This document shows, piece after piece, positions 16,302 to 34,812 of a stretch of DNA of 36,338 nucleotides. A program made the translations under genes and the position numbers. The number at the start of each line of letters is the position of its first letter. Within the stretch, counting starts at the first letter, position 1. This DNA is from Sulfurimonas sp. GWF2_37_8 (lineage in GTDB: Bacteria > Campylobacterota > Campylobacteria > Campylobacterales > Sulfurimonadaceae). The stretch spans positions 2,058-38,395 of the forward strand of contig MIBW01000018.1 of assembly GCA_001829625.1 (NCBI GenBank), given 5' to 3'. The notes under the pieces were generated by a model. The model had not been told where the DNA came from. It made no database searches and saw only the letters and a list, made by a program, of their open reading frames with translations.

Positions 16302-16376
16302 TCCGAATTAGCTCAGCGGTAGAGTAGGTGACTGTTAATCACTTGGTCACTGGTTCGAATCCAGTATTCGGAGCCA
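16302..16376 (+). tRNA. tRNA-Asn (GTT), integration target
   Basis: A 75-base cloverleaf: acceptor TCCGAAT pairs with ATTCGGA, the anticodon loop CTGTTAA gives GTT at 16334-16336, the T arm is CTGG-TTCGAAT-CCAG, and the 3' end is GCCA. It lies 26 bases after tRNA-Met on the same strand. Its last 17 bases form part of the 19-bp repeat found again at 35666-35684, so the mobile element entered here and left the tRNA intact. Confidence 0.96.
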
Positions 16377-16426: not shown

Positions 16427-16580
16427 TTCGGTGTCAATCTCGGTGCCATTCGGTGTCAAATAAATCTTTATCCAAATTACAAACCTCATGCAATCTATAA
16501 AACATTTCCATTTTTGGAAAAAAACACCATTTTCAACAACTCAGGCAACAAGTTTTTCACTCGGTGCCAATTCGGTGCCA
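16427..16580 (+). promoter_or_regulatory. Left arm-type integrase sites, five TTCGGTGYCA copies
   Basis: Copies of TTCGGTGYCA lie at 16427-16436, 16439-16448 (CTCGGTGCCA), 16449-16458, 16560-16569 (CTCGGTGCCA) and 16571-16580. They come in closely spaced direct groups about 10-12 bp apart. The last two lie inside the integrase 3' coding end. Matching copies occur at the right end. This arrangement fits arm-type sites bound by the N-terminal domain of the integrase. Confidence 0.65.
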
Positions 16581-17674
16581 AAAGAAGAAAAAGTTCCGTT
16601 TAAAAACTCTTCTCTTTTCTTCTCTTTTCTCTTAATGTAATGAGTGTATTTACTCAGTGTCATAGACGAGTCGGTATGTCCTAACATATTAGATAACCAA
16701 AGAATATCTTCCCCATTTTCCAACATCATAGTCGCAAATGAATGTCTTGTTTGATAAATGGTTCTGTAATCAATCCCACAAACTTTTAATGTCTTCTTCC
16801 ATGAAGTCTCTCTGATTCTTTTGATGTCATAAATAGGTTCATCAAACTTATTTAAAAACACATACGAATCTTTATCGCCAGTGAGTTTGTATTGACTTTT
16901 TAAATATGGCATCAATGAGTCTAAAATATCAATCGTGCGATTGCTCGATTCTGTTTTAGTCTTACCATCAAAACCCATTTTTCTGGTTCTTGTGATTTTG
17001 ATTTCAGATTTGAAAAAATTCACATCACACCACTTCAAACCAACCATCTCTCCGCTTCGCATCCCGCTCATAAAACCAAGAGCGAAAAAGTTTCTGTCTT
17101 GTCCGTCCGACTTTTCTAAAATCAATGAAATCTCATTAAGTGAAAAAGGTGTAATTTCAGTTTTTGAGACTTTTGCCGTTTTAACAAGAGTCAAAGGATT
17201 TTTATCTATCAACTCATCGGCAATTGCATCTTTTATAATGGTGCTTAAAATAGCTCGAATAGTTCTTACTCTTCTTGGACTTACCGCTTTTAGCAATTTG
17301 CTTTGCCATAATTTAATATGAGACGCTTTTATTTCGTCTAGTTTTAAATGTCCCAAATGGGGTGAGATGTGTTTATTATAAGCTATTTTATAATCGTTTT
17401 GGGTGCTGAGGCTTCGTGAGCCTTCATTCATCTCAAATGACTTCTTTTGATAATCATCCAATTTTGGTATCTTTTTTTCAATGAACTTATTATTCTCTAA
17501 CTTATACAACAGCTCAGGAATAATCTTTTTCTTTGCCAATTTCATATTAGCAGGTGTATTCTCTAATTTAAGAGTTTTTCTTTGTCTGATTCCATCGTTA
17601 TCGTTGAAATCTATCCATAACCACTCTTTAACTATACCTTCGGAATTTTTAACTTTTTTAACATAGATTTTCAT
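16541..17674 (-). CDS. int: Tyrosine recombinase / site-specific integrase
   Basis: A 377-aa integrase that joins element and tRNA-Asn att sites. An arm-binding N-terminal part (1-70) is followed by a SAM-like core-binding domain (about 75-165) and a catalytic domain. Catalytic residues seen are R206 (GMRSGEM), R310-H311 in YQTRHSFAT, H333 (MLGHTD) and nucleophile Y343 (SKYTH). The usual His of the HxxR box is Tyr (Y307), a variant seen in many phage-type integrases. The gene reads away from cargo and ends 165 bp from tRNA-Asn. The start follows AAGGAACTGTATATT; the promoter is at 17736-17741. Confidence 0.95.
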   Translation of the reverse strand: MKIYVKKVKNSEGIVKEWLWIDFNDNDGIRQRKTLKLENTPANMKLAKKKIIPELLYKLENNKFIEKKIPKLDDYQKKSFEMNEGSRSLSTQNDYKIAYNKHISPHLGHLKLDEIKASHIKLWQSKLLKAVSPRRVRTIRAILSTIIKDAIADELIDKNPLTLVKTAKVSKTEITPFSLNEISLILEKSDGQDRNFFALGFMSGMRSGEMVGLKWCDVNFFKSEIKITRTRKMGFDGKTKTESSNRTIDILDSLMPYLKSQYKLTGDKDSYVFLNKFDEPIYDIKRIRETSWKKTLKVCGIDYRTIYQTRHSFATMMLENGEDILWLSNMLGHTDSSMTLSKYTHYIKRKEKKREEFLNGTFSSFGTELAPSEKLVA

Positions 17675-17769: not shown

Positions 17770-18111
17770 TTATGAGACTAATGAGGATAAAATCTCATTG
17801 ACGATTGATGCAGTTTGTTCTTTTTCATAGGTTACATTGTTTGCAGATTTGACACCCATTACCCAATTATCAACTTCAACTTTGTCAAATAAAAGTTTCC
17901 CATCTCTTTTGAAGTAGTGGACGCCTTGGATGAAATCATTTTTTTTGATTTTAGATTTGATAGTTTCAAGTTTGTAGCCTGTGTAGTCCGACAACTCTTG
18001 TGTGTTGAACCATCTCTTTTGGATAGTTCCTTTTTCAACTGTATCTTTTACAGATGTTAAAAGAGATACGATGGTAGAAATATGATTTAATGCTTCAAAG
18101 TCAATATTCAT
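17770..18111 (-). CDS. Excisionase/MerR-like helix-turn-helix protein
   Basis: A 113-aa small DNA-binding protein. The region RWFNTQELSDYTGYKLETIK through FKRDGKLLFDKVEVDNWV (about 40-95) is the winged helix-turn-helix of the HTH_17/Xis group. It lies next to the integrase on the same strand, the usual place for a recombination directionality factor, so excision control is the likely role. The ATG at 18111 was chosen because AAGGAC precedes it; the longer frame to 18156 lacks a ribosome site. A regulator-only role is also possible. Confidence 0.72.
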   Translation of the reverse strand: MNIDFEALNHISTIVSLLTSVKDTVEKGTIQKRWFNTQELSDYTGYKLETIKSKIKKNDFIQGVHYFKRDGKLLFDKVEVDNWVMGVKSANNVTYEKEQTASIVNEILSSLVS

Positions 18112-18217
18112 TTTTGCGTCCTTTGTTTTTCTTGTCCGCAGTTTATTTGAATACAAGAAAAGAAGCGAAGGTAAAACGGCAGTGGAAGTGCAACAGATTT
18201 ATTGTATTAAACTGCTT

Positions 18218-18295: not shown

Positions 18296-18314
18296 CTTAA
18301 CTTTAAAAGTTAAG
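18296..18314. terminator. Perfect 9-bp-arm palindrome at the methylase stop
   Basis: CTTAACTTT-A-AAAGTTAAG spans the stop codon (18310-18312) of the methylase gene. It could end the ParB-methylase transcript, but no T run follows on the minus strand. Two direct copies of GGGGTGAAAAT (18259-18269, 18283-18293) lie just beyond it. Confidence 0.35.
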
Positions 18315-19422
18315 CACATTTTTCAAGAGATTTTGAATCGAAGATATTGTTTAGAGGTTGTTTGAAGTTATTTTTATATAGTATAAGTTCAACAACATTT
18401 TTAACTTTCGCATTTTTTGCACTTGTGATAAGTTCTTTTCTGTTAAAAGGTTTATACTCTAAATCAAGTTTATTAATGTAATGATAAAGGATTGGACTTA
18501 CATTATTGTTATAGATGAAGTCTATATCGCTTAAACTATCAAGTGTGCCTATATGATTGAAGTTTTTTTGTGAATAATTAACAGTACATTCTTTGATGTC
18601 TGAATTTTGAAGATTCATCATCTCTTCTGCGTTGTATTCGCGGTAATCTTCTTTTAAATAGACTGGGTCAATATTCCATAGAGTATTTTTTCTGTGTTTA
18701 AACTCTTTGTACATCAACAAGTAATCAGAGTTGAAAAACTTCATATCGAATCTGTTATACAGTTTGCTGTAGGTATCTATTCTTTTGATGGTTTTATAAA
18801 AAAAGTCATCTATGTCATCAAATTCATAGATAGGTTTTCCAAAGCTAATGATGCCACCTTTTTTAAAACTCATCATTCCAGAAAAGTTAAAGGCTGATAA
18901 CATAATTAAAAGAGTGCTTGTCTCAATGCCAAACTCTTTTTTCTTTTGAAGTTCATTAAATCTCTGAATCATCTTTTGCTTCACCTTTAAAAAATCCTCT
19001 ATTGGTATATAAAGCTTTTTGTAAGGGATGATAATTTCAGTTCTTACAAACTCTAAAAAATAATCTCTCATTTTTATAGGTGAGTTTCTTATATTTTCAT
19101 GCATTGTAATGATGCAGGTGTTGATTTCATTTACGATTACGGTTTTTACACCATGCTTTTGTAATGAATCGCTCAGAGCTTTAAAAGAACCGCCCATCCC
19201 ATAAAAACCATCTACATAGGTGTCGTAGTGATTATATTTGGTTAAATGGTTGTTAAAGATGTCATTTAAGTCATTTCTCATCTTGTACTTTCCCCCACCA
19301 TAGGCAAGTAGAGCTTTGATGTCGTGTTTATATGAATAAATAAAAGATATATAGTTATCTTTAAAAAGTTTCTTGTCGTGACTTGATTGGTGCAGTTGTG
19401 AATCAATATTAATTGTAGCCAT
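18310..19422 (-). CDS. D12-class DNA adenine methylase-like protein with DPVY motif
   Basis: A 370-aa protein with the layout of Dam/D12 N6-adenine methyltransferases. AYGGGKYKMRNDL (40-52) is the AdoMet-loop start and DGFYGMGGSF (71-80) matches the family FxGGG element. FNFSGMMSF (178-186) lies where the FNGLxR motif is expected. The catalytic DPPY is DPVY at 252-255, so the second proline is replaced, which may alter or abolish activity. Its ATG overlaps the ParB-like gene stop by one base (TAATG), so the two act together. Likely roles are self-marking of the element or evading restriction; both are inference. Confidence 0.8.
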   Translation of the reverse strand: MATINIDSQLHQSSHDKKLFKDNYISFIYSYKHDIKALLAYGGGKYKMRNDLNDIFNNHLTKYNHYDTYVDGFYGMGGSFKALSDSLQKHGVKTVIVNEINTCIITMHENIRNSPIKMRDYFLEFVRTEIIIPYKKLYIPIEDFLKVKQKMIQRFNELQKKKEFGIETSTLLIMLSAFNFSGMMSFKKGGIISFGKPIYEFDDIDDFFYKTIKRIDTYSKLYNRFDMKFFNSDYLLMYKEFKHRKNTLWNIDPVYLKEDYREYNAEEMMNLQNSDIKECTVNYSQKNFNHIGTLDSLSDIDFIYNNNVSPILYHYINKLDLEYKPFNRKELITSAKNAKVKNVVELILYKNNFKQPLNNIFDSKSLEKCA

Positions 19423-20378
19423 TAGTTTGCTCCTTCAAGAAGAGATTTGATAAGTTCAAGCTCTTCTTTGAAGTCGATATGAAGTTTGGATTGTATTTTT
19501 TCTACATCTTCCTCTTCATCGGTTTCAATGGCAACATTAAAATATTTTTTAATCTCATATTTAAAGACTCTCTTCATATCGACAAGAATATTGGGTTCAT
19601 CATCATCTTTGATTTCTGCATCTTCTGACGAATTTAATTCGTTGACAGATATTTCGGAAAGAACAGTCTCTTCTTTGGTTTCTTTTGACTCTTTTGATTT
19701 TTTGGAATCTTCATTAATTGTTTTGTTGCGATTTTGACGAGCTAACATCTCTTCATATTGTTTTGTGATGGAAACAAGGTGTTTGTGTTCAATATTCTCT
19801 GTCTCAATAACTTCTTTTATGAAGTTGGCTAAATCTATCTCTTCAAGTTTAGACATCACAATAAAAGTTGTGAAAGGGATTTTTTTCGCCGAGTCTAACT
19901 TTTGAAAAATAGACTTCACTTCGTCTGAAAGTGTTGAATAAATTTTTCCAGCTTTAAGTTTTAACTGTATCGCTCTTTGAGTGCAATTTTGAATTTTTGA
20001 CATATACTCTGTGTATGGTTCATCGTATTTTTCAAATACAGCATGTTGATAATAGTATATTTGAATGATATCAAGATGCGACATATTTCTGTTAGTCAGT
20101 AAAAACTCAATTCTTAACTTCTCTATTTCAAGAGGGGTTTTATTGGAATCAACCACAAACGCAGGTATCGTCTTAATTTCTAAATTCTTTGATATTAACG
20201 CTCTTCTATTTCCTGAGATAACATTGTTATCATCATCAATATAAATAGGTGTCTGAACACTATAATTTTTAATTGACTCTGTCAAGTTTTCAAAAGAGAT
20301 TAAATCTCCTACGATATCTATAATGTTGTTAAATTTAAGTGCAGATACACTCGCTTGAATAATTTTATTGTTTTTCAT
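19422..20378 (-). CDS. ParB-like nuclease/partition-domain protein
   Basis: A 318-aa protein whose first ~90 residues match the ParB/Srx fold: ASVSALKFNNI, then the motif ISGNRRALISKNL in place of the ParB GxRR box, and IPAFVVD. A helical region follows that could include a helix-turn-helix (about 120-160), then an acidic, Ser/Glu-rich linker and a short C-terminal domain. An in-frame ATG at 20420 has no ribosome site; the ATG at 20378 has AGGAAC at good distance and starts the conserved domain. No ParA partner is present. ParB-like genes next to DNA methylases are common in phages and elements, which favours DNA modification or targeting over segregation. Confidence 0.75.
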   Translation of the reverse strand: MKNNKIIQASVSALKFNNIIDIVGDLISFENLTESIKNYSVQTPIYIDDDNNVISGNRRALISKNLEIKTIPAFVVDSNKTPLEIEKLRIEFLLTNRNMSHLDIIQIYYYQHAVFEKYDEPYTEYMSKIQNCTQRAIQLKLKAGKIYSTLSDEVKSIFQKLDSAKKIPFTTFIVMSKLEEIDLANFIKEVIETENIEHKHLVSITKQYEEMLARQNRNKTINEDSKKSKESKETKEETVLSEISVNELNSSEDAEIKDDDEPNILVDMKRVFKYEIKKYFNVAIETDEEEDVEKIQSKLHIDFKEELELIKSLLEGAN

Positions 20379-20469
20379 TTTTTGTTCCTGTTTAGGTTCT
20401 TCAAAATAAATTTTGAACATGGATATATGTCTATTTAAAGTTTTTACTTAAAAATGACACCCACCGTTT

Positions 20470-20488
20470 AAACGAAAAAAATTCGTTT
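20470..20488. promoter_or_regulatory. Element palindrome copy AAACGAA-N5-TTCGTTT
   Basis: A 7-bp-arm palindrome in the region upstream of the ParB-like gene. It belongs to the family with arms AACGAAT/ATTCGTT found at 19627, 26881, 27388 and 34706. Confidence 0.55.
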
Positions 20489-20996: not shown

Positions 20997-22694
20997 TTAA
21001 AAGGTGAAGGCGATTTCATAATCCGAGGTGTCTATCTTTGGTTTATCGTTTTTTTGTTTTGAATGTTGATAGTTTTGATAGTCTTTTTTTGTTTTTAATA
21101 TATGTCGTGAGTTTCCTACGGATGATTCTATGTATTCTAAATCTGACATCTCTTGTTTCATTTTAGAGATTAAATAAAACTTCTCAACTGCTTCTTCTTT
21201 ATAAAGCTCATTGTTGTCAAAAATTGTTGTTTGATTTTTGCCTCTTGCATCACTTCTTGAATAGCTTTCATTTTCTCGTTTTTCAAGTAAATATTTCTTT
21301 GTTTCCACTTTTAATAATTTGGCATGCTCTGCCTTGGTAAGTCGTATATATTTACCGTGTTTAAGTTTTGTGGTTGGTATTCTTGTATTTATATCAATAT
21401 CTATAATAGCATCGTTCTCTGAGTAAAGAGATTTTAAAAATTCCAACTCTAACTGACTTTGCTCATAAATGTAAATTTCCTTAAATGCTTCTATATGCTC
21501 TCTTGTGTTACTATCTTTTATTTCAGAAACAGTAACGCCATTTGTATCAGCACCATATATATGATTAAGATACATTCCTAACATATCCTCTTCATAGGCT
21601 TCAATATCTCCATTATAAAGCGATTTTATCTCTTCATCAACTAAAAGGGACTCTTTTTCTTTGATATCATCTATGAGCAGTTCATATTCCATCGTATAGT
21701 CATATTGTTCTCTTAAATATAAAGATGGGGAACTATTTACATCTATAATTTTAAGAGTATTATATGTCATGCTTTTATACAATCTCTTCATTGCGTTTTT
21801 AAATATAGCTCTATTATATGTCTCATCATATGAGTATAAATTTACATATTTGATTTCTCGCAAGATTTCAAGTAGGAAGATTTTAGCGTTTTTATGAGGG
21901 CTTGAAGATTTAGAGTTTGAAATCTTTTCAAAAATAGCATTAAACATTTTTTTGTGAAATTCTTCATTTAAATAATTTATTGTCTGTAAGAGACACCCAT
22001 CTTCATGAAAAAAAAGATTTTCCAAGGCATCTTCCATTTGATGATTATTTAGTATTTCACGAATATTGGTTTCTACATATGACTCCATGGGCATATAATA
22101 ATCTTTCAGAATTTTTTTGTATGCTTTCTTTAGCAACTCTTTATCTTCTTTTTTATTACTTGCTATCATCTTTTGAGCAGTTTTTTTATCTTTGTATATT
22201 TCATGCTTAGTTAGAAGGTTGATAAGTTGAGGCTCTTCTAAAAAATAAGTATTTAATTTTTTAAAATCCAATAAGATTTTTTTGAAGATATGTTGAGTAG
22301 ATATAGTGTTAGAAATCAATTCTACAAGGGTGTCTGATTGGACTAATGATTGATAAGAGGATATATCAACCTTCTTATTTTCTATCATTCGTATTATGAG
22401 ATTGTAGGTTTCTGGTGCAACTTTTCTGCTTAGTACATTTTCAACGATTGAGGAGGTGTTTTTTGTGTTGGACTTGTATCTCTCTTTGTCATAAATTACT
22501 AAAATCATTGAGTTTGACAAGTAGGTTTCTATAAATTCTCGAGATACTTCTTCTTTGGATGCTATGGGTATAAACTGTTTTTGTAAATAAACTTTTGAAT
22601 TAACTTCAACATATTGAAAATCAATAAGTACAAACTGTATATCATCGCTTATTAGGGATTCAAAAGTATTAAAAGAGTCTAAGTGCAGTATCAT
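20997..22694 (-). CDS. 565-aa protein of unknown function in the mobilization operon
   Basis: A large soluble protein, Lys/Glu/Ile-rich, with no signal peptide, membrane segment or motif that I recognise. The first ~100 residues look alpha/beta (QFVLIDFQYVEV, MILVIYDKERY). The middle is helical with a charged stretch near 170-200 (KKEDKELLKKAYKKILKD). The C-terminal ~100 residues are highly polar and end in a basic, Gln-rich tail. It starts 39 bp after the relaxase stop, so it is probably the last gene of the mobilization operon. A role in relaxosome function, helper-conjugation hijacking or host interaction is open. Confidence 0.7.
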   Translation of the reverse strand: MILHLDSFNTFESLISDDIQFVLIDFQYVEVNSKVYLQKQFIPIASKEEVSREFIETYLSNSMILVIYDKERYKSNTKNTSSIVENVLSRKVAPETYNLIIRMIENKKVDISSYQSLVQSDTLVELISNTISTQHIFKKILLDFKKLNTYFLEEPQLINLLTKHEIYKDKKTAQKMIASNKKEDKELLKKAYKKILKDYYMPMESYVETNIREILNNHQMEDALENLFFHEDGCLLQTINYLNEEFHKKMFNAIFEKISNSKSSSPHKNAKIFLLEILREIKYVNLYSYDETYNRAIFKNAMKRLYKSMTYNTLKIIDVNSSPSLYLREQYDYTMEYELLIDDIKEKESLLVDEEIKSLYNGDIEAYEEDMLGMYLNHIYGADTNGVTVSEIKDSNTREHIEAFKEIYIYEQSQLELEFLKSLYSENDAIIDIDINTRIPTTKLKHGKYIRLTKAEHAKLLKVETKKYLLEKRENESYSRSDARGKNQTTIFDNNELYKEEAVEKFYLISKMKQEMSDLEYIESSVGNSRHILKTKKDYQNYQHSKQKNDKPKIDTSDYEIAFTF

Positions 22695-22719: not shown

Positions 22720-22743
22720 ACCGAAAAACGAATTTATTTCGGT
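22720..22743. terminator. Hairpin at the relaxase stop, diverged palindrome copy
   Basis: ACCGAAA (22720-22726) pairs with TTTCGGT (22737-22743) around a 10-base loop that contains the relaxase stop. The loop and right arm resemble the AACGAATTTA-TTCGTT palindrome with one inserted base. It could attenuate transcription into the 565-aa gene. Confidence 0.4.
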
Positions 22744-24221
22744 TTTAAATCTCTTGATGGACTTCTATAATCTTCTTGAATATAAAGCTTGTTTTGCTCA
22801 GTAAAATGGTTTTTGTGGTGCTTTTGTTGTAAATCTTCTATTAATAGATCAGTTGCCACAAGAGATAGTTCCATCAAATCAGTAAAAAAATCAGTTATTT
22901 TTTTCATATACTTTATAATGAAATATATCTCTGTAAATAAATTCTTTGCGAGCATCTCTAAAAAATCACCTATATCTCCGCCTTTACTGCTGTTGTTTAA
23001 ATTCTTATACATATAGTTTTTTGATTTCTCATCTTTATAAACAACCAACTGTTGAGAACTTGTTTTATTTTCTATAACTGAATAATTAGCGGTGGACTCT
23101 ATCTCTTTATAATTGTAAAGTTTTATGGCGATATGGGCTAAATTCAAAGATTTCAGATATTCGAGTTTTTGGTAATGCAGAGCATTGTTTTTAATGGTAC
23201 TCTCTTTTTTTATTTCATCGCCGTGGAATAATTTATCTTCTAAAATTGGCGGTGTATCCATAGGTTCGATGAAATTATTTGTTTCTTCGTTTAAACGGCT
23301 ACGGGCTTTTACTCTTGAGCCGTCCAATCTGTTATCAACTCTTTTTTTATGTACCTCTTGCATAGCATCCAACCGACTTTTTATATGGTTTAGTGATTGC
23401 TGTTTTATATGCTCTTTTTGCTTTTGCAGAGGGATGTCATTAAAATCATATTCTATATATTTTTTTGTTCCGTTTTCGGTAATATATTTAGATTTGCCGT
23501 CATTGAATAAGGGACTAAAAATCCTCTGAGCTTTTAATCCGATGTCATGTTGCACCGTTAAATAAAAATCATCTTTTTTATAGTCATAGCCTATTTTTTG
23601 AATATCAAGTTTCAGCTCATTTCTCATGTGCTGTATAAGTTCATCGTGAGAACTAAAATTCTCTTTATTTTCAAAAAGGTAATCAAGTAATTTATCCTCA
23701 AAAGCTTTTTTATCAAGTTTATTTTTTATAGAGGATGGGTTATATTTCCAATTCTTCTCGGGGTTTGATTTTGAGATGGGGTTTGGCGGTGTTTCATCAT
23801 ATTTTATATTTAAATAATCTCTTATTGCCTCAAATCTTTTTAAATCACGCTTGTGATAGTATAAATCCAACTTCGTATCGGTTAGCAGGTTCTTTTTTGG
23901 AACTTGTATATGGATGTGGCTGTTGTCTGTGTCTTGATGAAGAACAGCGAATAAATTTACTTCATCTTTTGAATAGGAATGCAATAACTCTTTTTTAAAA
24001 TCTTTATATATGGCAGACATATCTTCATCGCTTCGTTTGCCGTTTGCACTTACTATAAAGTGAAAATGACTGTCTTTATAATTTAATGACTTTGATAATG
24101 AATCCGTCAATTTGGCATTACCGTCCAAAATAGTTATTTTTTCTCTATCTCTACTATTATTGGTGCCGTTGATTAGATAGTTCGTTAAATTCCCGTTTCC
24201 ACTATTTACCGTAATTATCAC
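22734..24221 (-). CDS. Relaxase / mobilization nuclease (MOB_P-like)
   Basis: A 495-aa protein that would nick oriT and lead the transferred strand. A tyrosine near the start (Y15, in GNLTNYLIN) is the candidate nucleophile. The metal-binding triad is in LHQDTDNSHIHIQV (H95, D97, H102, H104), the motif III of the PF03432 relaxase domain. The C-terminal half is hydrophilic and helical with no helicase or primase motifs. It overlaps the MobC-like gene by 20 bp. No coupling protein accompanies it, so transfer needs a co-resident conjugative system. Confidence 0.9.
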   Translation of the reverse strand: MIITVNSGNGNLTNYLINGTNNSRDREKITILDGNAKLTDSLSKSLNYKDSHFHFIVSANGKRSDEDMSAIYKDFKKELLHSYSKDEVNLFAVLHQDTDNSHIHIQVPKKNLLTDTKLDLYYHKRDLKRFEAIRDYLNIKYDETPPNPISKSNPEKNWKYNPSSIKNKLDKKAFEDKLLDYLFENKENFSSHDELIQHMRNELKLDIQKIGYDYKKDDFYLTVQHDIGLKAQRIFSPLFNDGKSKYITENGTKKYIEYDFNDIPLQKQKEHIKQQSLNHIKSRLDAMQEVHKKRVDNRLDGSRVKARSRLNEETNNFIEPMDTPPILEDKLFHGDEIKKESTIKNNALHYQKLEYLKSLNLAHIAIKLYNYKEIESTANYSVIENKTSSQQLVVYKDEKSKNYMYKNLNNSSKGGDIGDFLEMLAKNLFTEIYFIIKYMKKITDFFTDLMELSLVATDLLIEDLQQKHHKNHFTEQNKLYIQEDYRSPSRDLKPK

Positions 24222-24489
24222 TTAGCACCTCCATTAGCAATTTTTCTATCAGGTACAAATAATTAAAAATAGCAATATCAAAACTTCGATAACCACTTCT
24301 GTTGATTTCATTATTTATATTTTCCAATGTACCGTTAATGCTGTTGAGCAAATAAAAGAGATGTGTTTGATTTTTAGTTTTTAGAGCGTTGGATGTGATA
24401 TATTCACGAATGCTCTTATTGGAACTATTTGCTAATATTTGAACTTTGTTATACTCATCCTCATCCAATCTCACTCTTACAAATTTCAT
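24202..24489 (-). CDS. MobC-like relaxosome protein, ribbon-helix-helix type
   Basis: A 95-aa protein. It starts KFVRVRLDEDEYNKVQILA and continues NSSNKSIREYITSNAL, a beta strand and two helices typical of ribbon-helix-helix relaxosome accessory proteins. A helical tail follows (about 40-95). It overlaps the relaxase start by 20 bp and lies one base after the coiled-coil gene. It should bind near oriT and recruit the relaxase. The assignment rests on pattern and position, not on a database match. Confidence 0.75.
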   Translation of the reverse strand: MKFVRVRLDEDEYNKVQILANSSNKSIREYITSNALKTKNQTHLFYLLNSINGTLENINNEINRSGYRSFDIAIFNYLYLIEKLLMEVLSDNYGK

Positions 24490-25120: not shown

Positions 25121-26095
25121 TTATAAACTTTTGGATAATAAGTTCTCAATATAGTATTGAATTTGGTATTGGTGCTTTTTCATAATGTCCTCGTAGCCTC
25201 TTGCTTCAAATATCTTTTTAATGATGATTTCATCATCTGTGATTTGTTTCGAGGTGCGAAGCCATCTTGCATAGGCTAAGTCGGCTGTGGATTTGTCTTG
25301 ATTGTATTTATTTAGTAGCTCTATGTATTTACGATTTACGATTTTTTTAATACCCTTGTATTCTTCAAATTCAGCTCTGCTCGAGTCAATGTCCGTATTT
25401 TTGTTTATCATCGCTTTTGGACGGGTTTCTGCCGTTTTTTGGCAAGGTTTTTTCGCCTCTGCCTCTGCTAATAAATAGTTTTTCGCGACATTTTCAAAAT
25501 CTGTAAAATTGTAATAATTTGGAAATTTTTCGACTGTGACTATAAAATTATTATTCTGAGTTTTTTTATTCATATAGCCCGCTAATCTAAAAATGCGAGC
25601 GGTGTCAAAAGTTTTATCAACATCGAAGTGGTAGATTAAACCCTTGAGCAGTTTTTTAAAATAATCCCGCTCCTCTTTGTTTTTTACAATATGGGCTTCT
25701 TTAAATTTATAGATAAATTGGAACTTCCTTAATGAGGATTCTGTTTTATAAGTTGGTTCTCCAAACAGTTCTATTATTTTTCTTTTTTTCTCTTCTATAT
25801 CGCCCTTGTCTATATCGAAGTAAAAGCTTTTTATTGAATTCACAAATTCCTCTTTACGGCTTGGATGGAAGGTGTTTTGCGGTTTATAGGTGTTTAATGA
25901 AAAATATATATCAACACCATCATTTTTGTTTAGGTAGTAAAATCTCCCTAACTGTTTTTTAAAATTAGTATCTTTTATATTGAGCATGGTATGGTAATTT
26001 TTTACTTTACCATCAGCACCGATTGGATGTTTTTGGGCGATTATGAAATGCTCGTCTTCATTGAAGTAATCTTCTAAAAATTCAATAGAGTTCAT
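25121..26095 (-). CDS. RepB-type DNA primase
   Basis: A 324-aa protein resembling the RepB_primase family (PF16793) of mobilizable plasmids such as RSF1010, which primes single-stranded initiation sites. Supporting stretches are SFYFDIDKGD (the acidic metal-binding strand) and DKTFDTARIFRLAGYMNKK, equivalent to the family RLPGFxNxK motif. A helical C-terminal part follows (about 240-320) with an ARWLRT segment. AAAGGCT lies upstream of the ATG. It follows the winged-helix gene with iteron-like repeats between them, so the element may replicate autonomously after excision. Confidence 0.78.
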   Translation of the reverse strand: MNSIEFLEDYFNEDEHFIIAQKHPIGADGKVKNYHTMLNIKDTNFKKQLGRFYYLNKNDGVDIYFSLNTYKPQNTFHPSRKEEFVNSIKSFYFDIDKGDIEEKKRKIIELFGEPTYKTESSLRKFQFIYKFKEAHIVKNKEERDYFKKLLKGLIYHFDVDKTFDTARIFRLAGYMNKKTQNNNFIVTVEKFPNYYNFTDFENVAKNYLLAEAEAKKPCQKTAETRPKAMINKNTDIDSSRAEFEEYKGIKKIVNRKYIELLNKYNQDKSTADLAYARWLRTSKQITDDEIIIKKIFEARGYEDIMKKHQYQIQYYIENLLSKSL

Positions 26096-26168: not shown

Positions 26169-26267
26169 TGTATATTTTAAATTTAGTGTAAATCTTAAAT
26201 ACGGCATAGTTTTTGAGCCACCACAAAGCATGATTTTTAAGCCACCTAAAAGCATCATATTTGAGCC
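26169..26267. repeat. Iteron-like repeats with AT-rich flank, candidate replication origin
   Basis: Three tandem repeats of exactly 24 bp lie at 26204-26227, 26228-26251 and 26252-26267 (partial). Each starts GCAT and contains TTTRAGCC. Two 14-bp AT-rich direct repeats (TGTATATTTTAAAT at 26169-26182, TGTAAATCTTAAAT at 26187-26200) stand next to them. The third 24-bp repeat overlaps the 3' end of the winged-helix gene. Tandem iterons beside an AT-rich block and rep genes are the classic form of an iteron-type plasmid origin. Confidence 0.6.
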
Positions 26268-26713
26268 TTGATGAATTTTGCGAAAAATGGTGTCATCTCT
26301 ATTATATTTGGTTGGTTACGCATGGGGTTATAGAATAAGGTGTTTTGGGGAAATATAAATTCCCTTATCTCCTTATTTATAACTCTGTTGGTACCTGAAT
26401 GTAATTGGATGAAACCTTTTGAATCCAAATCTTGTAGGGAATTTATTGCGGTGGGTTTTTTAATCCCCGTATGTTTTTCTAATTCCTTATAGGGCAGAAA
26501 AATATAGAGGTGTTCATATGAGAAATGAACACGAGAGAGTAAATACACCAATAATATTTTTGAAGTCGCCGTTAGCTCTGATTTTAGAATCAGTTTGAGG
26601 GCTGGCTCTTCTAAAACAAGATACAGAACCTCTTGCTCTGCCTTATTTTTAGCTTTATAATTTTTTATTCTTTTGCACATCTCTTGGTGCTCTGGGGAAA
26701 GTTTATGAGTCAT
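26255..26713 (-). CDS. Winged-helix replication-initiator-like protein
   Basis: A 152-aa DNA-binding protein. Residues ~48-110 read as a winged helix (LTATSKILLVYLLSRVHF, then YKELEKHTGIKKPTAINSLQDLDSKGFIQL), like the helix-turn-helix of phage and plasmid replication or replisome-organiser proteins. GAAAGGACAAC is a good ribosome site. It precedes the primase gene and borders the 24-bp repeats, so it is the best candidate for the iteron-binding protein (RepC-like function). It could instead be a transcriptional regulator. Confidence 0.65.
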   Translation of the reverse strand: MTHKLSPEHQEMCKRIKNYKAKNKAEQEVLYLVLEEPALKLILKSELTATSKILLVYLLSRVHFSYEHLYIFLPYKELEKHTGIKKPTAINSLQDLDSKGFIQLHSGTNRVINKEIREFIFPQNTLFYNPMRNQPNIIEMTPFFAKFIKAQI

Positions 26714-26880: not shown

Positions 26881-26907
26881 GCCTAAACGAAATAAATTCG
26901 TTTAGGC
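26881..26907. terminator. 11-bp-arm hairpin at the J-domain gene stop
   Basis: GCCTAAACGAA (26881-26891) and TTCGTTTAGGC (26897-26907) form a perfect stem around ATAAA, overlapping the stop codon at 26902-26904. On the minus strand it is followed within ~8 bases by a run of eight T, so it can act as an intrinsic terminator. Its core is also a copy of the element palindrome. Confidence 0.6.
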
Positions 26908-27366
26908 AGTGAGTTTATTTCGTTGTTTGGTTTTTACTTCTTGGCATCCGTATTTTGCTTTTATGTCGTCCATAGATTTTTGCTGTGGGTTTCTGCTTTT
27001 CATCTCTCCGTAATACCACATTTTTTTCTTTGATGCCCATTTGAAATTTAGCTCTTTCAATGTTTCTTTAATACCTTTGGTGTCACCTGATAGCCAAATC
27101 CAACTTCCCACAACTTCAATGATGATATTTTCAAAATGCAGAATTTTAGAGATTACTTTTTCAAGTTCAACATCAAATTCACTATCATTTAAAAAGTTGA
27201 GTCCATGTTCTAAAATATGGTTATATACTTGGTTTAAGAGTTTAAACATTTCATCTGTTCCCCCAACATCAGGGTGTAGTTTTTTTGCTAAATCCTTGTA
27301 TATCTTTTTTGCTTCATTGATTCCCTCTATCCCTTTAAACTGTTCTTCGATTTGTGAATGTGTCAT
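26902..27366 (-). CDS. J-domain (DnaJ-like) protein
   Basis: A 154-aa protein with an N-terminal J domain (about 14-65). The HPD motif is at 31-33 in LAKKLHPDVGG, so it should stimulate a host DnaK ATPase. The rest (about 70-140) is a separate alpha/beta region (IIIEVVGSWIWLSGD, then KWASKKKMWYYG) seen in plasmid and phage J-domain proteins. It is the first gene of the replication module. J proteins can help disassemble or activate replication initiators, which fits the neighbouring winged-helix and primase genes. AAAGGAT precedes the ATG. Confidence 0.85.
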   Translation of the reverse strand: MTHSQIEEQFKGIEGINEAKKIYKDLAKKLHPDVGGTDEMFKLLNQVYNHILEHGLNFLNDSEFDVELEKVISKILHFENIIIEVVGSWIWLSGDTKGIKETLKELNFKWASKKKMWYYGEMKSRNPQQKSMDDIKAKYGCQEVKTKQRNKLTA

Positions 27367-27387: not shown

Positions 27388-27404
27388 AACGAATTTAATT
27401 CGTT
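27388..27404. promoter_or_regulatory. Element palindrome AACGAAT-TTA-ATTCGTT
   Basis: A perfect 7-bp-arm palindrome 22 bases upstream of the J-domain ATG. It is the best-conserved copy of the recurring motif and is placed like an operator for the replication operon. Confidence 0.6.
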
Positions 27405-27838: not shown

Positions 27839-27863
27839 TGTGGGGCTGAGGAATCGAACCTCA
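27839..27863 (-). other. tRNA-like 3' fragment (T arm plus acceptor strand)
   Basis: On the minus strand TGAGG-TTCGATT-CCTCA forms a perfect 5-bp T stem with a consensus 7-base T loop. It is followed by seven bases GCCCCAC and an A, as in an acceptor strand with discriminator. Upstream bases do not fold into an anticodon arm, and no 5' half (GTGGGGC) is nearby. It could be an att remnant of an older insertion, or chance. Confidence 0.4.
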
Positions 27864-27966
27864 GTAGTGCTGATATAGTAATTACACGCCTTTAATTTGT
27901 TATTGAAGTAAGTCAACTTTAACTTTAATTTTTCCATAATTTCACGCTTCGCAGTGTTTTTGGGAT

Positions 27967-28017: not shown

Positions 28018-28641
28018 TTGAACGAAGAATTAGTTAAATTAATGGGGACTATAAGAGCAAATTTTATTTTCATCCATAAAATACTAGATAACCAAAAACT
28101 AAATTTTAATGATGATTACAAGAAAATAAATTATGCATATTACAATGTATTTTGTGCTCACTATGAATCCTTTTTTATTTTAATTTATAATAATAATTTT
28201 AGTTCGGCTATATTATTATTAAGAACGATGCTAGAATTGTATGTCAAAAGTTATTATCTTGAATTTATAGAAAAAGAAAAAAATACAAATATTTTACAAC
28301 TTATAGATGGAGAAGAGGACTTTCCAAGTTTTTTTAAAATGCTAAAAGATCTCGAAAGTTATAAAGATAAATCAGGAGCAAAATTTGAAGGAGTTTTTAT
28401 ACAATTTTCAAAATCTGAATTAGCCAGTTATGAAAAATTTTCTTTATTTAGTCATGGTAAAGGAGAATATTTAAGAACTATCTTTGAGAATAATAAAATA
28501 AGCTATAGTAATAAACAAATTTCAGATGTTGTTAAAACAGCAAAAGGACTTTTTGAAACTTTATCACTCTTATTAATGTATACCCATAGTCTCAATGACG
28601 AAGTAAAAGAAGTGATTAAGGAATTACAAGAAGCCCTATAA
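28018..28641 (+). CDS. DUF5677/DUF6988-like helical protein, unknown function
   Basis: A 207-aa, mostly helical protein with a TTG start preceded by GAAAGG. The segment SSAILLLRTMLELYVKSYYLEF is like the conserved helix (A-x-x-LLRxxxE) of DUF5677-type proteins, a group often found in defence or mobile contexts. FSLFSHGKGEYL near residues 140-151 is the second landmark. No membrane segment or nuclease motif is seen. It stands alone, with its own promoter and a hairpin behind it, before the seven-gene operon. Base composition is clearly more AT-rich than the backbone. Confidence 0.6.
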   Translation: MNEELVKLMGTIRANFIFIHKILDNQKLNFNDDYKKINYAYYNVFCAHYESFFILIYNNNFSSAILLLRTMLELYVKSYYLEFIEKEKNTNILQLIDGEEDFPSFFKMLKDLESYKDKSGAKFEGVFIQFSKSELASYEKFSLFSHGKGEYLRTIFENNKISYSNKQISDVVKTAKGLFETLSLLLMYTHSLNDEVKEVIKELQEAL

Positions 28642-28647
28642 CAAAGC

Positions 28648-28691
28648 CTTGAAGAGAAATAGTTGACTAATCAGGTTCAACTATTCTCAAG
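28648..28691 (+). terminator. Long imperfect hairpin after the first cargo gene
   Basis: CTTGA..GAAATAGTTGA (28648-28666) pairs with TTCAACTATTCTCAAG (28676-28691) around a 9-base loop, with a small bulge. No T run follows, so it may attenuate rather than end transcription into the operon at 28751. Confidence 0.4.
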
Positions 28692-28750
28692 TCAACCGAT
28701 AGTATACGAGATTAACTTTTATGAAAAATTAACAAATATATAGGACAATA

Positions 28751-29785
28751 ATGAAATTAGAGAATCACTTAATATATTTTGATATAACACAAATTTGTGG
28801 AGTTGGTTGTGAGTTTTGCATGTACTCAGATAAACATACAATAAAAGACCACTTGGTTTTGACAAAAAAAGCAAAAGTAAACATATCTAAACTTATAAAT
28901 CACGAAGAAATAAAAAGAGTTTCTATTAGTGGAGAGGGTGAACCACTCAATAATATTAAAGCTTTTAAAGAAATTTTATTGTTATCTAATGGAGGAATTG
29001 CATTTGAATTTATCACAAGTGGATATATTTCTCATGATAAATTAATTAATTTATATGATGAAATAAATGAAATCATTATAAAAAATGGAGATACTTGCAA
29101 TATTAGACTAAGTACAGATTCATATCATATCGCTAAAATTAATCATAAGCCTCATGCAATAAGTGTTAAATATTTTTTAGATAATAATTTAACAAATATG
29201 ACATTTTCTTTTAGGTCAATTGATATTGATAAAGAATTTACAAGAAATTATTTACAAGAAGAATTAAAACTATTAGGTATAAAATCAAAAATTTTAATAA
29301 ATGATGAACTTGAAGATAGTGTTATTATCGATAATAAAAAACTTCAAATTGATTATAAAAATTTAGTTAAGCCTACATTTTTAAAAGATATGAAATATAT
29401 GACTTTATCTGAATATATTGAAGCTAAAGAAAAAAAATTAAATAAAGTTTTTACATTGGGAAATGTAAATCCAAAAGCATTATTGAATGGTATGGGAATC
29501 ACGATTAAGCCAAATGGTGATATTTATTTTTATGGTATTGATTGTAATTTATTAGCTAATATTAACTCTGATACTGTAGATATTGATTTTTTTAAAAATA
29601 TTGTTCTAAGAGATAAATTAATCAATACTTTATATACAATACCATTTATGCAATTAATGGATAAAATTTCTATAAATGAGGATGTTAAAAAACTAATTAA
29701 GGATGTTAATAATCCATACTGGATTATAAAAGAAATTATGTTTTATGAGAAATCCTTACTGAATAAAATGATTGAAAATGATTGA
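28751..29785 (+). CDS. Radical SAM enzyme
   Basis: A 344-aa enzyme that would use a 4Fe-4S cluster to cleave AdoMet into a 5'-deoxyadenosyl radical. The cluster motif is canonical CX3CX2C (C16, C20, C23 in ICGVGCEFCMY). SISGEGEPLNN is the GGE-type AdoMet motif at the end of strand 2. The C-terminal part has IKPNGDIYFYGIDCN, a segment like those in which radical SAM proteins read out a final strand, but no full SPASM cysteine set. TAGGACAAT precedes the ATG. It heads a run of seven coupled genes. Substrate unknown. Confidence 0.85.
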   Translation: MKLENHLIYFDITQICGVGCEFCMYSDKHTIKDHLVLTKKAKVNISKLINHEEIKRVSISGEGEPLNNIKAFKEILLLSNGGIAFEFITSGYISHDKLINLYDEINEIIIKNGDTCNIRLSTDSYHIAKINHKPHAISVKYFLDNNLTNMTFSFRSIDIDKEFTRNYLQEELKLLGIKSKILINDELEDSVIIDNKKLQIDYKNLVKPTFLKDMKYMTLSEYIEAKEKKLNKVFTLGNVNPKALLNGMGITIKPNGDIYFYGIDCNLLANINSDTVDIDFFKNIVLRDKLINTLYTIPFMQLMDKISINEDVKKLIKDVNNPYWIIKEIMFYEKSLLNKMIEND

Positions 29786-30614
29786 TTCTCATACGCATTC
29801 AAAATATTCTAAACATGCTATAGGAAGCATTGAAAATATTGTAGTATCTGCTATAGAAAATAATATTAAATTTCTTACAATTACGGATCATGCTCCTTTC
29901 CCAATAGATATAAATAATAGATTATTATATGATGAGTTAAAATATTATTTTGACGATATAAATACTGTTCAATCAAAATACTCAAAAGATATAACTATCT
30001 TAAAAGGGTTAGAAGCTGATTTTGTGCCACAACATATAAATTATACAAAAAATTTAATTTCTAACATGGAACTAGATTTTTTAATAGGCTCAATTCATTC
30101 CATGTTCATAGAAAATAAAAGAATAAATATTTGGGATATAGATAATATACATGATGAAAAGCTAATTACACAATATTTTTTATATCTAAAAGAACTTATT
30201 GAATCTAATTTATTTGATAGCATTGGTCACCCTGATGCAATTTTAAGAGGTGGTATAGATGAAAATATATATTGTGATAACTTTTATCCATTAATAAAAT
30301 TAATGCGAAATAATAATATATCGTACGAGTTAAATACATCTGGATTAAGAAAATCAACATATAATATTAAAACAAATAGCAAAACAAAAAAAATGTGGAA
30401 TTTTCCATCAAAATCATTGATATCAATTTTAAATGATTTTGATATTTTTTTTACTATTGGTTCTGATGCACATGCACCAAATGAAATAAGTATGGGCATT
30501 CAAACTATATTAAATACAGCTAAAGATATTGGTGTTAAAAAAATAAGTTATTATCAAAATAGAAATGTTATACATGTAGATATTGATAAGTGTATTGCAA
30601 AGGGAGATAGATAA
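29778..30614 (+). CDS. PHP-domain phosphoesterase (histidinol-phosphatase-like)
   Basis: A 278-aa metal-dependent phosphoesterase. The PHP motifs are in order: DSHTHSKYS (H5, H7), ITDHAPFP, the metal-binding GSIHSM, SIGHPDAI and the closing GSDAHAP. This is the HisK-type histidinol-phosphatase layout, but there is no histidine pathway nearby, so a different phosphate ester is likely. The ATG at 29778 overlaps the radical SAM stop by 8 bp; a TTG two codons earlier is possible. It would dephosphorylate an intermediate of the same pathway as its neighbours, by inference. Confidence 0.85.
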   Translation: MIDSHTHSKYSKHAIGSIENIVVSAIENNIKFLTITDHAPFPIDINNRLLYDELKYYFDDINTVQSKYSKDITILKGLEADFVPQHINYTKNLISNMELDFLIGSIHSMFIENKRINIWDIDNIHDEKLITQYFLYLKELIESNLFDSIGHPDAILRGGIDENIYCDNFYPLIKLMRNNNISYELNTSGLRKSTYNIKTNSKTKKMWNFPSKSLISILNDFDIFFTIGSDAHAPNEISMGIQTILNTAKDIGVKKISYYQNRNVIHVDIDKCIAKGDR

Positions 30615-31564
30615 TGCAAATTTCAAATTGTTATCTTACTATAAATAGTGAGAATAATTTTATCAATATGAAAAATTATGATGACATGAGTTTATTAACC
30701 GAACAATATAGTTTAGCTAAATATGGAAGTATAAAAGATATAAATATATTTGCCTATATGATTATAAAGAATATGTTTCAAGAGATTGATAATTCTCAAA
30801 GTGGATTTAGAAAAATACTTGAAATAGCAAAACAAAATAATGATTATATTGTTCTTATGACACCAGGATATAGAAATGTTAAATCATCTGCAAATATTAT
30901 GTTTGACATTGCTCTTCCACATATAAATACAAAACTAGCAATTATGAACTTTCCAATAATATCAAAATTAAAACTTCCTAGATTAGCAAGTCCTTGTGAA
31001 AACTATGCATCACTTACAACAAAAGAAAGAAAAATTATTGGACTAACAACTGACCATATTTTACCTGATTATGATTTTTATAAAAATAATAATATTCATG
31101 TAGTATATGGTGATGATATACTTATAACAGGTTCATCATCCAATAAAGCAAAGCTTGATGCTTTGTCAAAAGGTGCAAAATCATTTACATCTATTTATTC
31201 AGTTATAATTGACAAAAAAGTAGCATTAAATAACCCATCTATAGAAGAACAGTTAAACAAATCTAAAGTTACAGAAAAACTTGATAATACTGCAAAAGAG
31301 ATATTTATACAAGATGATTTTATGCCAGTTTTAAGGTCATTAAGATTAATTCTAAATGAAAGCAATTTACCCGATTTAAAACAATTTTTAGATGAAATCC
31401 CAAATCATAATCTTTTGAAAATTTATATTTCATATATGACAAATGAATCCTTAGAAAATGAGAAATATATAAAATCATTAGAATTTATTAAGAAATATTT
31501 AATATTAAATAATGAAATTAAACCTTGTGGTAATTTAAAAATAGGAGCAATATATGAGTTATAA
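30614..31564 (+). CDS. Phosphoribosyltransferase-like protein
   Basis: A 316-aa protein with a PRPP-binding signature, VVYGDDILITGSS (163-175), matching the type I phosphoribosyltransferase pattern of hydrophobic residues, DD and TGS. It continues with ALSKGAKSFTSIYSVIID as in that fold. The N-terminal ~150 residues (VLMTPGYRNVKSSA, LASPCENYASLT) and the helical C-terminal ~100 residues are not typical of salvage or ComF enzymes. They recall phosphoribosyltransferases linked to ter stress operons. Stop and start overlap in TAATG with the PHP gene. It may attach or release a ribose phosphate on a nucleoside-like product. Confidence 0.65.
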   Translation: MQISNCYLTINSENNFINMKNYDDMSLLTEQYSLAKYGSIKDINIFAYMIIKNMFQEIDNSQSGFRKILEIAKQNNDYIVLMTPGYRNVKSSANIMFDIALPHINTKLAIMNFPIISKLKLPRLASPCENYASLTTKERKIIGLTTDHILPDYDFYKNNNIHVVYGDDILITGSSSNKAKLDALSKGAKSFTSIYSVIIDKKVALNNPSIEEQLNKSKVTEKLDNTAKEIFIQDDFMPVLRSLRLILNESNLPDLKQFLDEIPNHNLLKIYISYMTNESLENEKYIKSLEFIKKYLILNNEIKPCGNLKIGAIYEL

Positions 31565-31961
31565 ACAAGTTATTGAAAAAACAAAAAGAATTGAGACAAT
31601 TTTAGTTAAGATGGGTGCAGACGGTAGAGGTCTTCATGAAAAAATTTCCAGCATAGAACATCTAATTGATGAAAAAATAGTAAAATCAATCCGATTTATA
31701 GCATCGATAAGAAATAAGTTGCTTCATGAAGATAATTTTGAAATGACATCAGAATTATTATCAGATTTTGAAAATGCATGTGAAAATATTATAAATAGTT
31801 TGGAAAATAATTCAACTTATGCCAAAGAACAAAATGATAATTCAAGTTATAGTTCATCATCTTCATCATCATCTTCAAGTTCAGATGAATTATCAGGCTG
31901 GGCATTACTAGGAGTAGGTATTGCTGGAGCTTTTGCAGTTTATAATTGGTTTAATTCATAA
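31554..31961 (+). CDS. HEPN-domain protein with Ser linker and C-terminal membrane anchor
   Basis: A 135-aa protein in three parts. Residues 1-88 are helical and contain SIRNKLLHED, an R53-x4-H58 motif, the catalytic signature of HEPN ribonucleases (DUF4145-like). Residues 97-110 are almost pure serine, encoded by a TCA/TCT triplet run. Residues 114-132 (WALLGVGIAGAFAVYNWF) form one transmembrane helix. This is the shape of a membrane-tethered RNase or a structural HEPN scaffold. AGGAG precedes the ATG, which overlaps the previous gene by 11 bp. It may be the effector of the operon, as an inference. Confidence 0.65.
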   Translation: MSYKQVIEKTKRIETILVKMGADGRGLHEKISSIEHLIDEKIVKSIRFIASIRNKLLHEDNFEMTSELLSDFENACENIINSLENNSTYAKEQNDNSSYSSSSSSSSSSSDELSGWALLGVGIAGAFAVYNWFNS

Positions 31962-31964
31962 TCA

Positions 31965-32405
31965 ATGATATGTTTAATAGGAATTATTGAAAGAGGAGAA
32001 TCATCAGCATCGGGTCAAAAAATGAATTGGAATGGATATGGTTCAATATATCATCAAGTAAATTTTTTCAAAGAACATTATCCATCTTTTTTTAAAAAAA
32101 TCATTGATTGTCAAATGGCTACAATAAATATTAAATTAAAAAATAAATTTATTTTAAATCATTGGGAATATACATTTGATAAAGTATATTGGCTACCAAA
32201 TTCAAATACATGGTATGAAAAATTATCATTTACTCCCATTACATTTTCATATAAAAATAATCAAGTTCAAGCATGGCTATATAAAGCTTATAAATCACCA
32301 CATAAAAATAATGATTTTCTTATCGAAGTTGTAGCCCCATATATAAAGAATCTAAAAATTAATGATATTTGTGAAATTAAAATTAATGAAAAATATATTA
32401 AATAG
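31965..32405 (+). CDS. Small protein resembling CTP-dependent riboflavin kinase (DUF120)
   Basis: A 146-aa protein. It begins with a glycine-rich strand (GIIERGESSASGQKM), has TINIKLKNKF in the middle and ends FLIEVVAPYIKNLKINDICEIKI. Together these resemble the archaeal RibK pattern G-x-V-x-S-G, GTLNIxL and EIIAPxxLRExLxLxDGD. In RibK this cradle-loop barrel uses CTP to phosphorylate riboflavin. Several RibK residues are not conserved here and the match is by eye only, so treat it as a fold hint. It starts 3 bp after the HEPN gene without a ribosome site, so translation depends on coupling. Confidence 0.4.
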   Translation: MICLIGIIERGESSASGQKMNWNGYGSIYHQVNFFKEHYPSFFKKIIDCQMATINIKLKNKFILNHWEYTFDKVYWLPNSNTWYEKLSFTPITFSYKNNQVQAWLYKAYKSPHKNNDFLIEVVAPYIKNLKINDICEIKINEKYIK

Positions 32406-34429: not shown

Positions 34430-34478
34430 TTCATTTTTAGCTATAACTCAACTTATAAATCAAACAAAGGGGATTCAA

Positions 34479-34667
34479 ATGGCTGTTAAACATATTAATG
34501 AAAACGCAAAAGAAGAAAGCGGTATTTTACTTTCTGGTGCGGATGCAACAAAAGTTTTTTCAATGTTTAGCGACAACAAGTCTTCTAAATATATTCAAGA
34601 AAAAACAGACAAGCTAAAATCTCTTCTTGATTTTGCTACAAAAAAACCTTTTCAATCTGCAAGTTAA
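34479..34667 (+). CDS. Small protein, 62 aa, unknown
   Basis: The ATG at 34479 has AAAGGGG seven bases upstream; a longer frame from 34377 overlaps the glycosyltransferase gene and lacks a ribosome site. The product is soluble and helical, starting MAVKHINENAKEESGILLSG and ending in a basic tail. I recognise no family. It lies 49 bp after the glycosyltransferase and before the palindrome-controlled promoter at 34706-34783. It may be an accessory to the operon or an orphan antitoxin-sized protein. Confidence 0.5.
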   Translation: MAVKHINENAKEESGILLSGADATKVFSMFSDNKSSKYIQEKTDKLKSLLDFATKKPFQSAS

Positions 34668-34705
34668 ATTTTTTAAGGACTTCAATTATTAATCTTTCAA
34701 ATTAA

Positions 34706-34783: not shown

Positions 34784-34812
34784 TGTGTAAAGAACAAAAG
34801 GAGGAGTTAGTA

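Follow-up and report, generated by a model that had tools for sequence, protein, structure and literature searches.

N6-adenine methylases are recognised by the tetrapeptide DPPY in motif IV, which serves as their signature. According to the part of PMC3814359 available to us, the acting groups of enzymes that form N6-methyladenine (m6A) are the side chain of the D/N residue, the backbone carbonyl at position 2, the backbone amide and the ring of the aromatic residue, and the lysine of motif X; the same text describes a small hydrophobic residue at motif IV position 2 in dimethylases of the KsgA/Erm type. For ParB-like proteins, the accessible sections of PMC11790492 present KorB as a cytidine triphosphate (CTP) clamp and repressor, and those of PMC12704722 report that a link to mobile elements is frequent among orphan ParB-like proteins, that ParB folds occur fused to methyltransferase domains in phages, and that arginine-to-alanine variants of Box II lose nucleoside triphosphate binding. 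Here, we describe a gene for a divergent Dam/D12-fold protein with an altered motif IV that overlaps a ParB-like gene on a mobile element of Sulfurimonas sp. GWF2_37_8 (assembly GCA_001829625.1, contig MIBW01000018.1, positions 2,058 to 38,395 of the forward strand). The whole stretch of DNA analysed, 36,338 nucleotides, will be referred to as the window, and coordinates are positions in it unless a locus is named. Compared genomes carry G numbers, and loci or sequence rows carry L numbers.

Results

The D12-like gene (18310-19422, minus strand) encodes 370 amino acids (aa) with the motifs YGGGK (X), DGFYGMGGS (I), NEIN (II) and DPVY (IV). The ParB/Noc-like gene lies at 19422-20420 on the same strand and encodes 332 aa counted from the first ATG. 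These are two open reading frames (ORFs) and not a fusion into a single polypeptide. An earlier note, made from the letters and ORF translations of this DNA, had described a one-base overlap of the two genes, which was borne out: the stop codon TAA (19424-19422) and the start codon ATG (19422-19420) share an A. The span of 18310-20378 given there holds two real ORFs, but 20378 is an internal ATG and the ParB-like ORF extends to 20420.

The reading of DPVY at the catalytic position proved correct as well (WNIDPVYLKE, with DPVY at residues 252-255). To place it, a tree and a motif table were made from 15 family members and five controls. The four closest homologues read DTVY (G004), DTVY (G502), DVPY (G346) and DTV followed by a frame break (G018). 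Measured against the (D/N)PP(Y/F/W) signature, the D and Y are present and the PP is not, both in the window protein and in the three homologues of its clade that cover the motif. The earlier note had regarded a mutation of this copy alone, among homologues with DPPY, as the outcome that would overturn its proposal of a changed specificity, a changed chemistry or a DNA-binding pseudoenzyme. None of the four closest homologues has DPPY, and the PP is missing in nine of the 14 family members that cover the motif, so that a private mutation of the window copy is ruled out and the proposal is supported in part. Outside the window clade, the wider family comprises three DPLY, two DPEY and five DPPY sequences, and the D and the Y are kept in all 14 family rows that cover the motif. 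The window clade of five members is supported at 100/99 and 100/100. On a tree built without the two PP columns, the PP state changes at least three times, the deep branches being weak. As a control, 30 out of 30 D12 loci matching PF02086 read DPPY (28 by script, two by eye); this set leans to standard enzymes because the 30 loci are mostly best-scoring rows, and the lower PF02086 rows, among them the family members of G018 and G425 that lack DPPY, lie outside it. Since the signature is altered in the close relatives too and its two key residues are kept, the altered motif represents a conserved variant, as opposed to a mutation of a single copy. Judged from these alignments, the pair is a real, conserved variant.

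The family was collected with two kinds of query, the window's own genome being included in the counts. With the single protein, matches were obtained in five of 60 relatives and ten of 397 class genomes, and with a three-row profile in ten of 135 genus genomes and 21 of 398 order genomes. Most of the weakest matches resemble ordinary D12 proteins in size and were kept outside the alignment. Not counted were a G622 copy that is interrupted by masked bases and reads DPPY, L005 and L014, which are ordinary D12 proteins reading DPPY, and other weak unaligned matches, among them a 308-aa match in G389 (E 1.2e-7). The N-terminal piece L017 was used in the tree although it ends inside motif IV, and L050 is a long branch of unsure placement. 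Single-protein scans of genome contigs and viral contigs gave no result, nor did the viral contigs with query A2 or with the G346 protein, nor did tblastn against plasmids. A phage search returned 12 matches to "DNA adenine methylase" of Synechococcus phages, covering at most 41% of the query. A literature search for methyltransferases with DPVY, DPLY, DPEY, DTVY or DPIY gave nothing relevant by title.

Two other groups of the wider family deserve mention. In the Sulfurimonas DPLY clade (L010, L021, L022; about 500 aa), the motif II acid is lost (NSIN), as is the acidic residue before PF in motif I; judging by these motifs, this clade is a stronger candidate for a pseudoenzyme than the window protein. 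The DPEY group (L011 and L012, in L108 and L109, from another family) has nearby a relaxase that shares about 40% identity with that of the window, and is sister to DPPY sequences.

The label "Dam-like" given by the earlier note is correct, though not obvious. With the HMMER speed filters on, the window protein alone had no Pfam match at E up to 10 and no PHROG match at E up to 1, and PF02086 was not matched over its curated cut-off by the window protein or in G000. The N-terminal part of the G018 homologue passes this cut-off with 39.5 bits. A profile of nine homologues matched DpnM (2dpm) with E 2.5e-12, aligning its motif IV with DPPY. An AlphaFold (AF2) model calculated from five rows had a mean predicted local distance difference test score (pLDDT) of 52, with residues 64-250 mostly fair, and all 18 Foldseek matches to it at E up to 0.001 were Dam, DpnM, T4Dam or M.CbeI. 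In a VIA comparison, the model was matched to 4rtr_A with Z 11.5 and a root-mean-square deviation (rmsd) of 3.3 over 169 aligned residues; outside the Dam group, the first chain reached Z 4.0. The Dam fold is thus predicted for the protein, its motif IV being altered, as it is in the close homologues. Membership in the PD-lambda-5 defence group (PADLOC PDLC04018, component B) was considered and rejected. The window protein scores 29.3 bits, and since the four clear genus members reach 261-391 bits and are followed by D12 proteins at large with 67 bits and below, this match reflects generic D12 similarity.

The second protein had been called ParB-like, which holds: it matches PHROG_620 "ParB-like partition protein" (E 7.8e-9), and its predicted fold matches Noc/ParB. 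Matches to Pfam ParB_N (18.4 against a cut-off of 26.3 bits) and NCBIfam parB_part (24.2 against 58.45 bits) stay below threshold. The model has a mean pLDDT of 70.6, and Foldseek matches it to Noc (7nfu, E 1.7e-6). VIA aligned the N-terminal part with ParB (7bnk; Z 11.0, rmsd 3.5, 91 residues) and KorB (8qa8; Z 9.6, rmsd 3.2, 88 residues), and the model with pNOB8 ParB-N over 198 residues (Z 9.7, rmsd 7.2). As modelled, the N-terminal part has the ParB/Noc/KorB (CTPase) fold. The Foldseek alignments to Noc, ParB and KorB extend into the DNA-binding part and cover about 210-225 columns, but at a template modelling score of about 0.3. The Box II arginine is present in the window protein (GNRR), in G004 and G502 (GSRR) and in G346 (GYNR), at 25-34% identity of the window ParB to those of G346, G004, G502 and G018. 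No ParA-type Pfam match was found among the element proteins scanned, and the locus does not show the ParABS arrangement.

The two genes travel together. A ParB-like neighbour is present in all five clade elements (window, G004, G502, G018 and G346), the pair of G346 being the fifth, with swapped gene order. Genus-wide, strong D12-like and strong ParB-like matches were found in the same four of 135 genomes; the four strong ParB-like matches all reach at least 481 bits, and the next best has 22.7 bits. The pair is a conserved, co-inherited two-gene module belonging to a family of integrative mobilisable elements in Sulfurimonas and relatives.

Selection could be estimated best for G004 versus G502, the other pairs being saturated or nearly so. 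The ratio of nonsynonymous to synonymous substitution rates (dN/dS) was 0.118 for the D12-like genes, at a dS of 0.51, and 0.22 for the ParB-like genes. In a nine-row alignment, seven of the 15 invariant columns (Met1 left out) fall within the 39 residues that we assigned to motifs X, I, II and IV (P 3e-4), and the D, the Y and the motif X lysine are invariant down to 20% identity. DPVY and DTVY retain the residues or backbone positions to which catalysis by m6A enzymes is ascribed, and because these groups are kept, DPVY does not imply lost catalysis. The ORFs of the window, G004 and G346 are intact. From these sequence data, a conserved and perhaps still catalytic variant appears likelier than decay.

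A further new feature is that the element carries its own repeated 17-bp palindrome, AACGAA-N5-TTCGTT, the perfect copies of which are confined to it. Four copies occur in the window against 0.06 expected: at 20471-20487, 51 bp upstream of the ParB-like start; at 26886-26902, at the 3' end of a DnaJ-like gene; at 27388-27404, 22 bp upstream of the start of that gene; and at 34706-34722, near the right end of the element. Copies with one mismatch lie inside the ParB-like ORF (19627-19643), at the junction of the relaxase gene and a gene for a 565-aa protein (22727-22743) and again near the right end (34748-34764). All four perfect copies of the assembly (1.9 Mb, 82.7% complete) are in the element, the reversed control having one copy, and with up to one mismatch seven out of ten are, the element making up 1.01% of the assembly. 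The binomial chance of such confinement is about 1e-8 for perfect copies and 1e-12 for up to one mismatch, assuming even spacing and ignoring the AT richness of the element.

Other counts weaken the palindrome claim. Among 40 shuffles, the best one likewise reached four copies of some 6+6 palindrome, and for the three copies of G004 the same comparison with any 6+6 palindrome again gave a shuffle with as many. Genome-wide with up to one mismatch, the reversed control is commoner (17) than AACGAA-N5-TTCGTT (10), and in the genus the perfect reversed control occurs in 43 of 135 genomes (1-3 copies each) against eight of 135 for the pattern itself, the seven besides the window's own having one or two copies each. 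Copy number alone is equalled by shuffles, and the case rests on confinement to the element. A role of the palindromes as general terminators was ruled out: of the four copies folded only that at 26886 folds strongly (z -9.1), and the others have z -1.0 to -2.7. Being part of a strong hairpin, the 26886 copy itself is possibly a terminator.

Related elements of other genomes repeat a sister palindrome, GTGAAATNATTTCAC, the reversed control of which occurs in none of the 135 genomes. All five copies in G004 and all four in G502 lie among element genes. In G246, five of six copies are on two contigs with element genes, one of them 1.6 kb from the nearest such gene, and 13 other genomes have a single copy each. 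G018 has two one-mismatch copies, one in the parB ORF and one at the relaxase junction, as in the window. No recurring palindrome was found in 25 kb of the G346 element region, just AT-rich words.

Which protein binds the palindromes was considered for two candidates, the ParB-like protein and an HTH_36-type regulator (helix-turn-helix; 26255-26713, minus strand; Pfam just below cut-off). That the palindromes belong to the regulator and the ParB/D12 pair has another target, which would be compatible with the best explanation of the pair given below, is to our judgement evenly balanced. Every one of the five elements or sets of pieces that bear sites (window, G004 contigs C15 and C9, G502, G246) also has a homologue of the regulator. 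Compared with the protein of G004 C15, identity is 79-82% for those of G004 C9, G502 and G246, which go with the same site, and 46% for that of the window, which goes with the other site; the proteins of the two site types differ in the stretch that we took as the recognition helix. The nearest site lies upstream of the HTH_36 ORF by about 173 bp in the window, 109 bp in G004 C9, 111 bp in G502, 57 bp in G246 and 500 bp in G004 C15, and G346 has neither an HTH_36 match in the 38 kb examined nor a recurring site. Standing against the regulator is the site within the parB ORF, which is perfect in G004 and G502 and has one mismatch in the window and G018, where it sits at matching positions (residues 260 and 259, respectively). 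Moreover, the G004 C9 and G246 pieces are cut contigs, and the G018 contig ends before the regulator gene would appear. The ParB-like protein as binder is doubtful, since G246 has sites and no ParB-like match in its assembly, and G346 has the ParB-like gene and no recurring site; we would put its chances at somewhat less than even. Co-occurrence thus slightly favours HTH_36 over ParB.

The element carrying the pair is an integrative mobilisable element, as integrase, relaxase and attachment (att) direct repeats were all found. It spans 19.3 kb at a tRNA-Asn site and is bounded by perfect 17-bp repeats, the left one (16360-16376, plus strand) lying at the 3' end of the tRNA-Asn gene (16302-16376) and the right one (35666-35682, plus strand) being identical to it. 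Its G+C content is 0.280 compared to 0.380 in the left flank. All element genes listed in this paragraph are on the minus strand. A tyrosine integrase (16541-17674; Pfam Phage_integrase, E 5.9e-24) and an excisionase-like (Xis-like) helix-turn-helix protein (17770-18156; PHROG_539, E 3.4e-6) precede the pair. On its other side lie the 565-aa protein (20997-22694), which has no assigned function and a 27% identical counterpart in the G018 element, a MobA/VirD2-like relaxase (22734-24221; PF03432, E 3.2e-8, over cut-off), a NikA-like accessory protein (24202-24489; Pfam below cut-off, counterpart in G018) and a RepB-primase-like protein (25121-26095; Pfam below cut-off, counterparts in G004 and G018). 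The small DnaJ-domain-like protein (26902-27366; Pfam below cut-off), which has palindromes on both sides, is 72-78% identical across genera (L108 14189-14656, L109 14253-14717, L152 3608-4072), above the other window proteins found there. Genes of a conjugation machine were not among the Pfam matches of the element proteins.

Some further observations concern the element as a whole. Its right half (28018-35539, G+C content 0.239) is cargo and holds DUF6988, radical S-adenosylmethionine (SAM), PHP domain, glycosyltransferase-like and capsule-synthesis-like genes; the radical SAM protein has a weak viperin-type PADLOC match (E 1.1e-5). In mid-element, 27841-27866 resembles by eye a reversed tRNA 3' end and may be a relic of an older att site. 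Contig C9 of G004 (L126 5600-10205) carries a second, sibling element with a 96% identical relaxase and the same palindromes, which is cut by the contig end. A literature search on Sulfurimonas elements yielded nothing on point among the titles listed.

Discussion

We tentatively favour, at a little under even confidence, an explanation in which the ParB-like protein is a KorB/Noc-like clamp on element DNA and the D12-like protein is still active as a methyltransferase on DNA amines. The ParB-like protein would load on element DNA, possibly at the palindromes, and would act as a regulator or organiser in the manner of KorB/Noc, no ParA having been seen. Its partner would still bind SAM and methylate the amine of a base, in the simplest case N6 of adenine in element DNA; it would do so through D252 and Y255, in a motif IV loop that two prolines no longer hold in place. 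Either the marks that the D12-like protein sets or its presence beside the clamp would tune how the element is excised, expressed or protected from restriction.

Several findings weigh against this explanation. Among the members compared here, none with a changed motif IV is known to be active, and we know of no tested enzyme with a residue other than proline at motif IV position 3. The AF2 model falls below a pLDDT of 50 after residue 250 and is thus uninformative on motif IV geometry. Motif I is degenerate in G346 (GAMNS), which, like the missing motif II acid of the DPLY clade, is as expected of drifting SAM sites. The D12-like gene of G018 is broken in frame at motif IV (L017 6863-6868), copies in other genomes being intact, and that of G502 ends early. 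On the side of the ParB-like protein, the Box II arginines are lost in G018 (GTED), and separate DNA-binding domains of Spo0J, VirB, SopB and KorB are matched weakly (Z 4.9-6.1).

Part of this evidence would fit a D12-like protein that is a pseudoenzyme, having kept the Dam fold and the binding of SAM or DNA without methyl transfer and serving the ParB-like protein as a specificity or stabilising partner. Positions 2 and 3 of motif IV vary in the clade (DPVY, DTVY, DVPY) compared to the uniform DPPY of the 30 controls, motif I drifts in G346, and the pairing with the ParB-like gene is strict. However, pure DNA binding has no need of the D, Y and motif X lysine that remain invariant in distant members, and purifying selection was detected in one pair; we consider this reading a real possibility, though less probable than its negation. 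An ordinary orphan anti-restriction methylase, with the ParB-like neighbour as a separate maintenance or nuclease gene and the coupling as operon economy, is improbable in our estimation. Methylases and ParB-superfamily domains have been reported on invasive elements (in the parts of PMC5512222 and PMC12704722 available to us), and this ParB was found in none of the ten other loci of the wider D12-like family (11-20 kb examined per locus), eight of which have an integrase or relaxase match. Nevertheless, the clade retains the pair in every member despite the swapped order in G346, and the control methylases keep DPPY, which the window protein does not. More improbable still is that a ParB-type sliding clamp delivers the D12-like methylase to DNA while spreading from element sites, so that amine methylation would be guided by the clamp and not by sequence and would mark the whole element; if true, the proline-poor motif IV would have relaxed as an adaptation, the enzyme no longer having to recognise its targets by itself. 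That the gene pair is decaying, functionless baggage of the element is very improbable, as the broken G018 gene with its Box II loss and the early end of the G502 copy are set against the intact ORFs of the window, G004 and G346 and against dN/dS values that already disfavour decay.

A family in which the prolines of the signature are repeatedly lost and D and Y stay, with the one testable pair under purifying selection, would either broaden the range of motif IV sequences accepted as functional or provide a natural set of pseudoenzymes. In addition, the pairing with ParB and the element-confined palindromes pose a defined question, namely which protein binds there and whether the methylase-like partner acts at these sites.

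Compared to known systems, the protein stands closest to the D12-class N6-adenine methyltransferases Dam, DpnM and T4Dam (PF02086), with which it shares the fold, the motif X GGK, the motif I FxG, motif II and the D and Y of motif IV. It differs from them in reading DPVY instead of DPPY and DGF instead of the motif I EPF, in itself lacking a PF02086 match, and in the link of its clade to a ParB-like gene. The RNA m6,2A dimethylases KsgA/Erm, for which the available text of PMC3814359 gives (A/S/N)(L/I/V)P(Y/F), resemble the DVPY of G346 in that a small hydrophobic residue replaces the first proline; they are, however, a different family overall, and G346 is the only similar row here. With the CTPase clamps ParB, Noc and KorB, the second protein shares the N-terminal fold and, in the window, G004, G502 and G346, the Box II arginine, whereas no ParA occurs among the scanned element genes and the partner is a methylase-like protein. 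Finally, in the ParB-methylase fusions (Bce_0392, cited in PMC5512222, and ParB with an N6_N4 methyltransferase, PMC12704722, as far as the accessible parts of both articles tell), a ParB fold is likewise tied to a domain of the adenine-methylase type in phages or mobile elements; in the Sulfurimonas module, each has a gene of its own, and the methylase belongs with Dam/D12 and not with PF01555.

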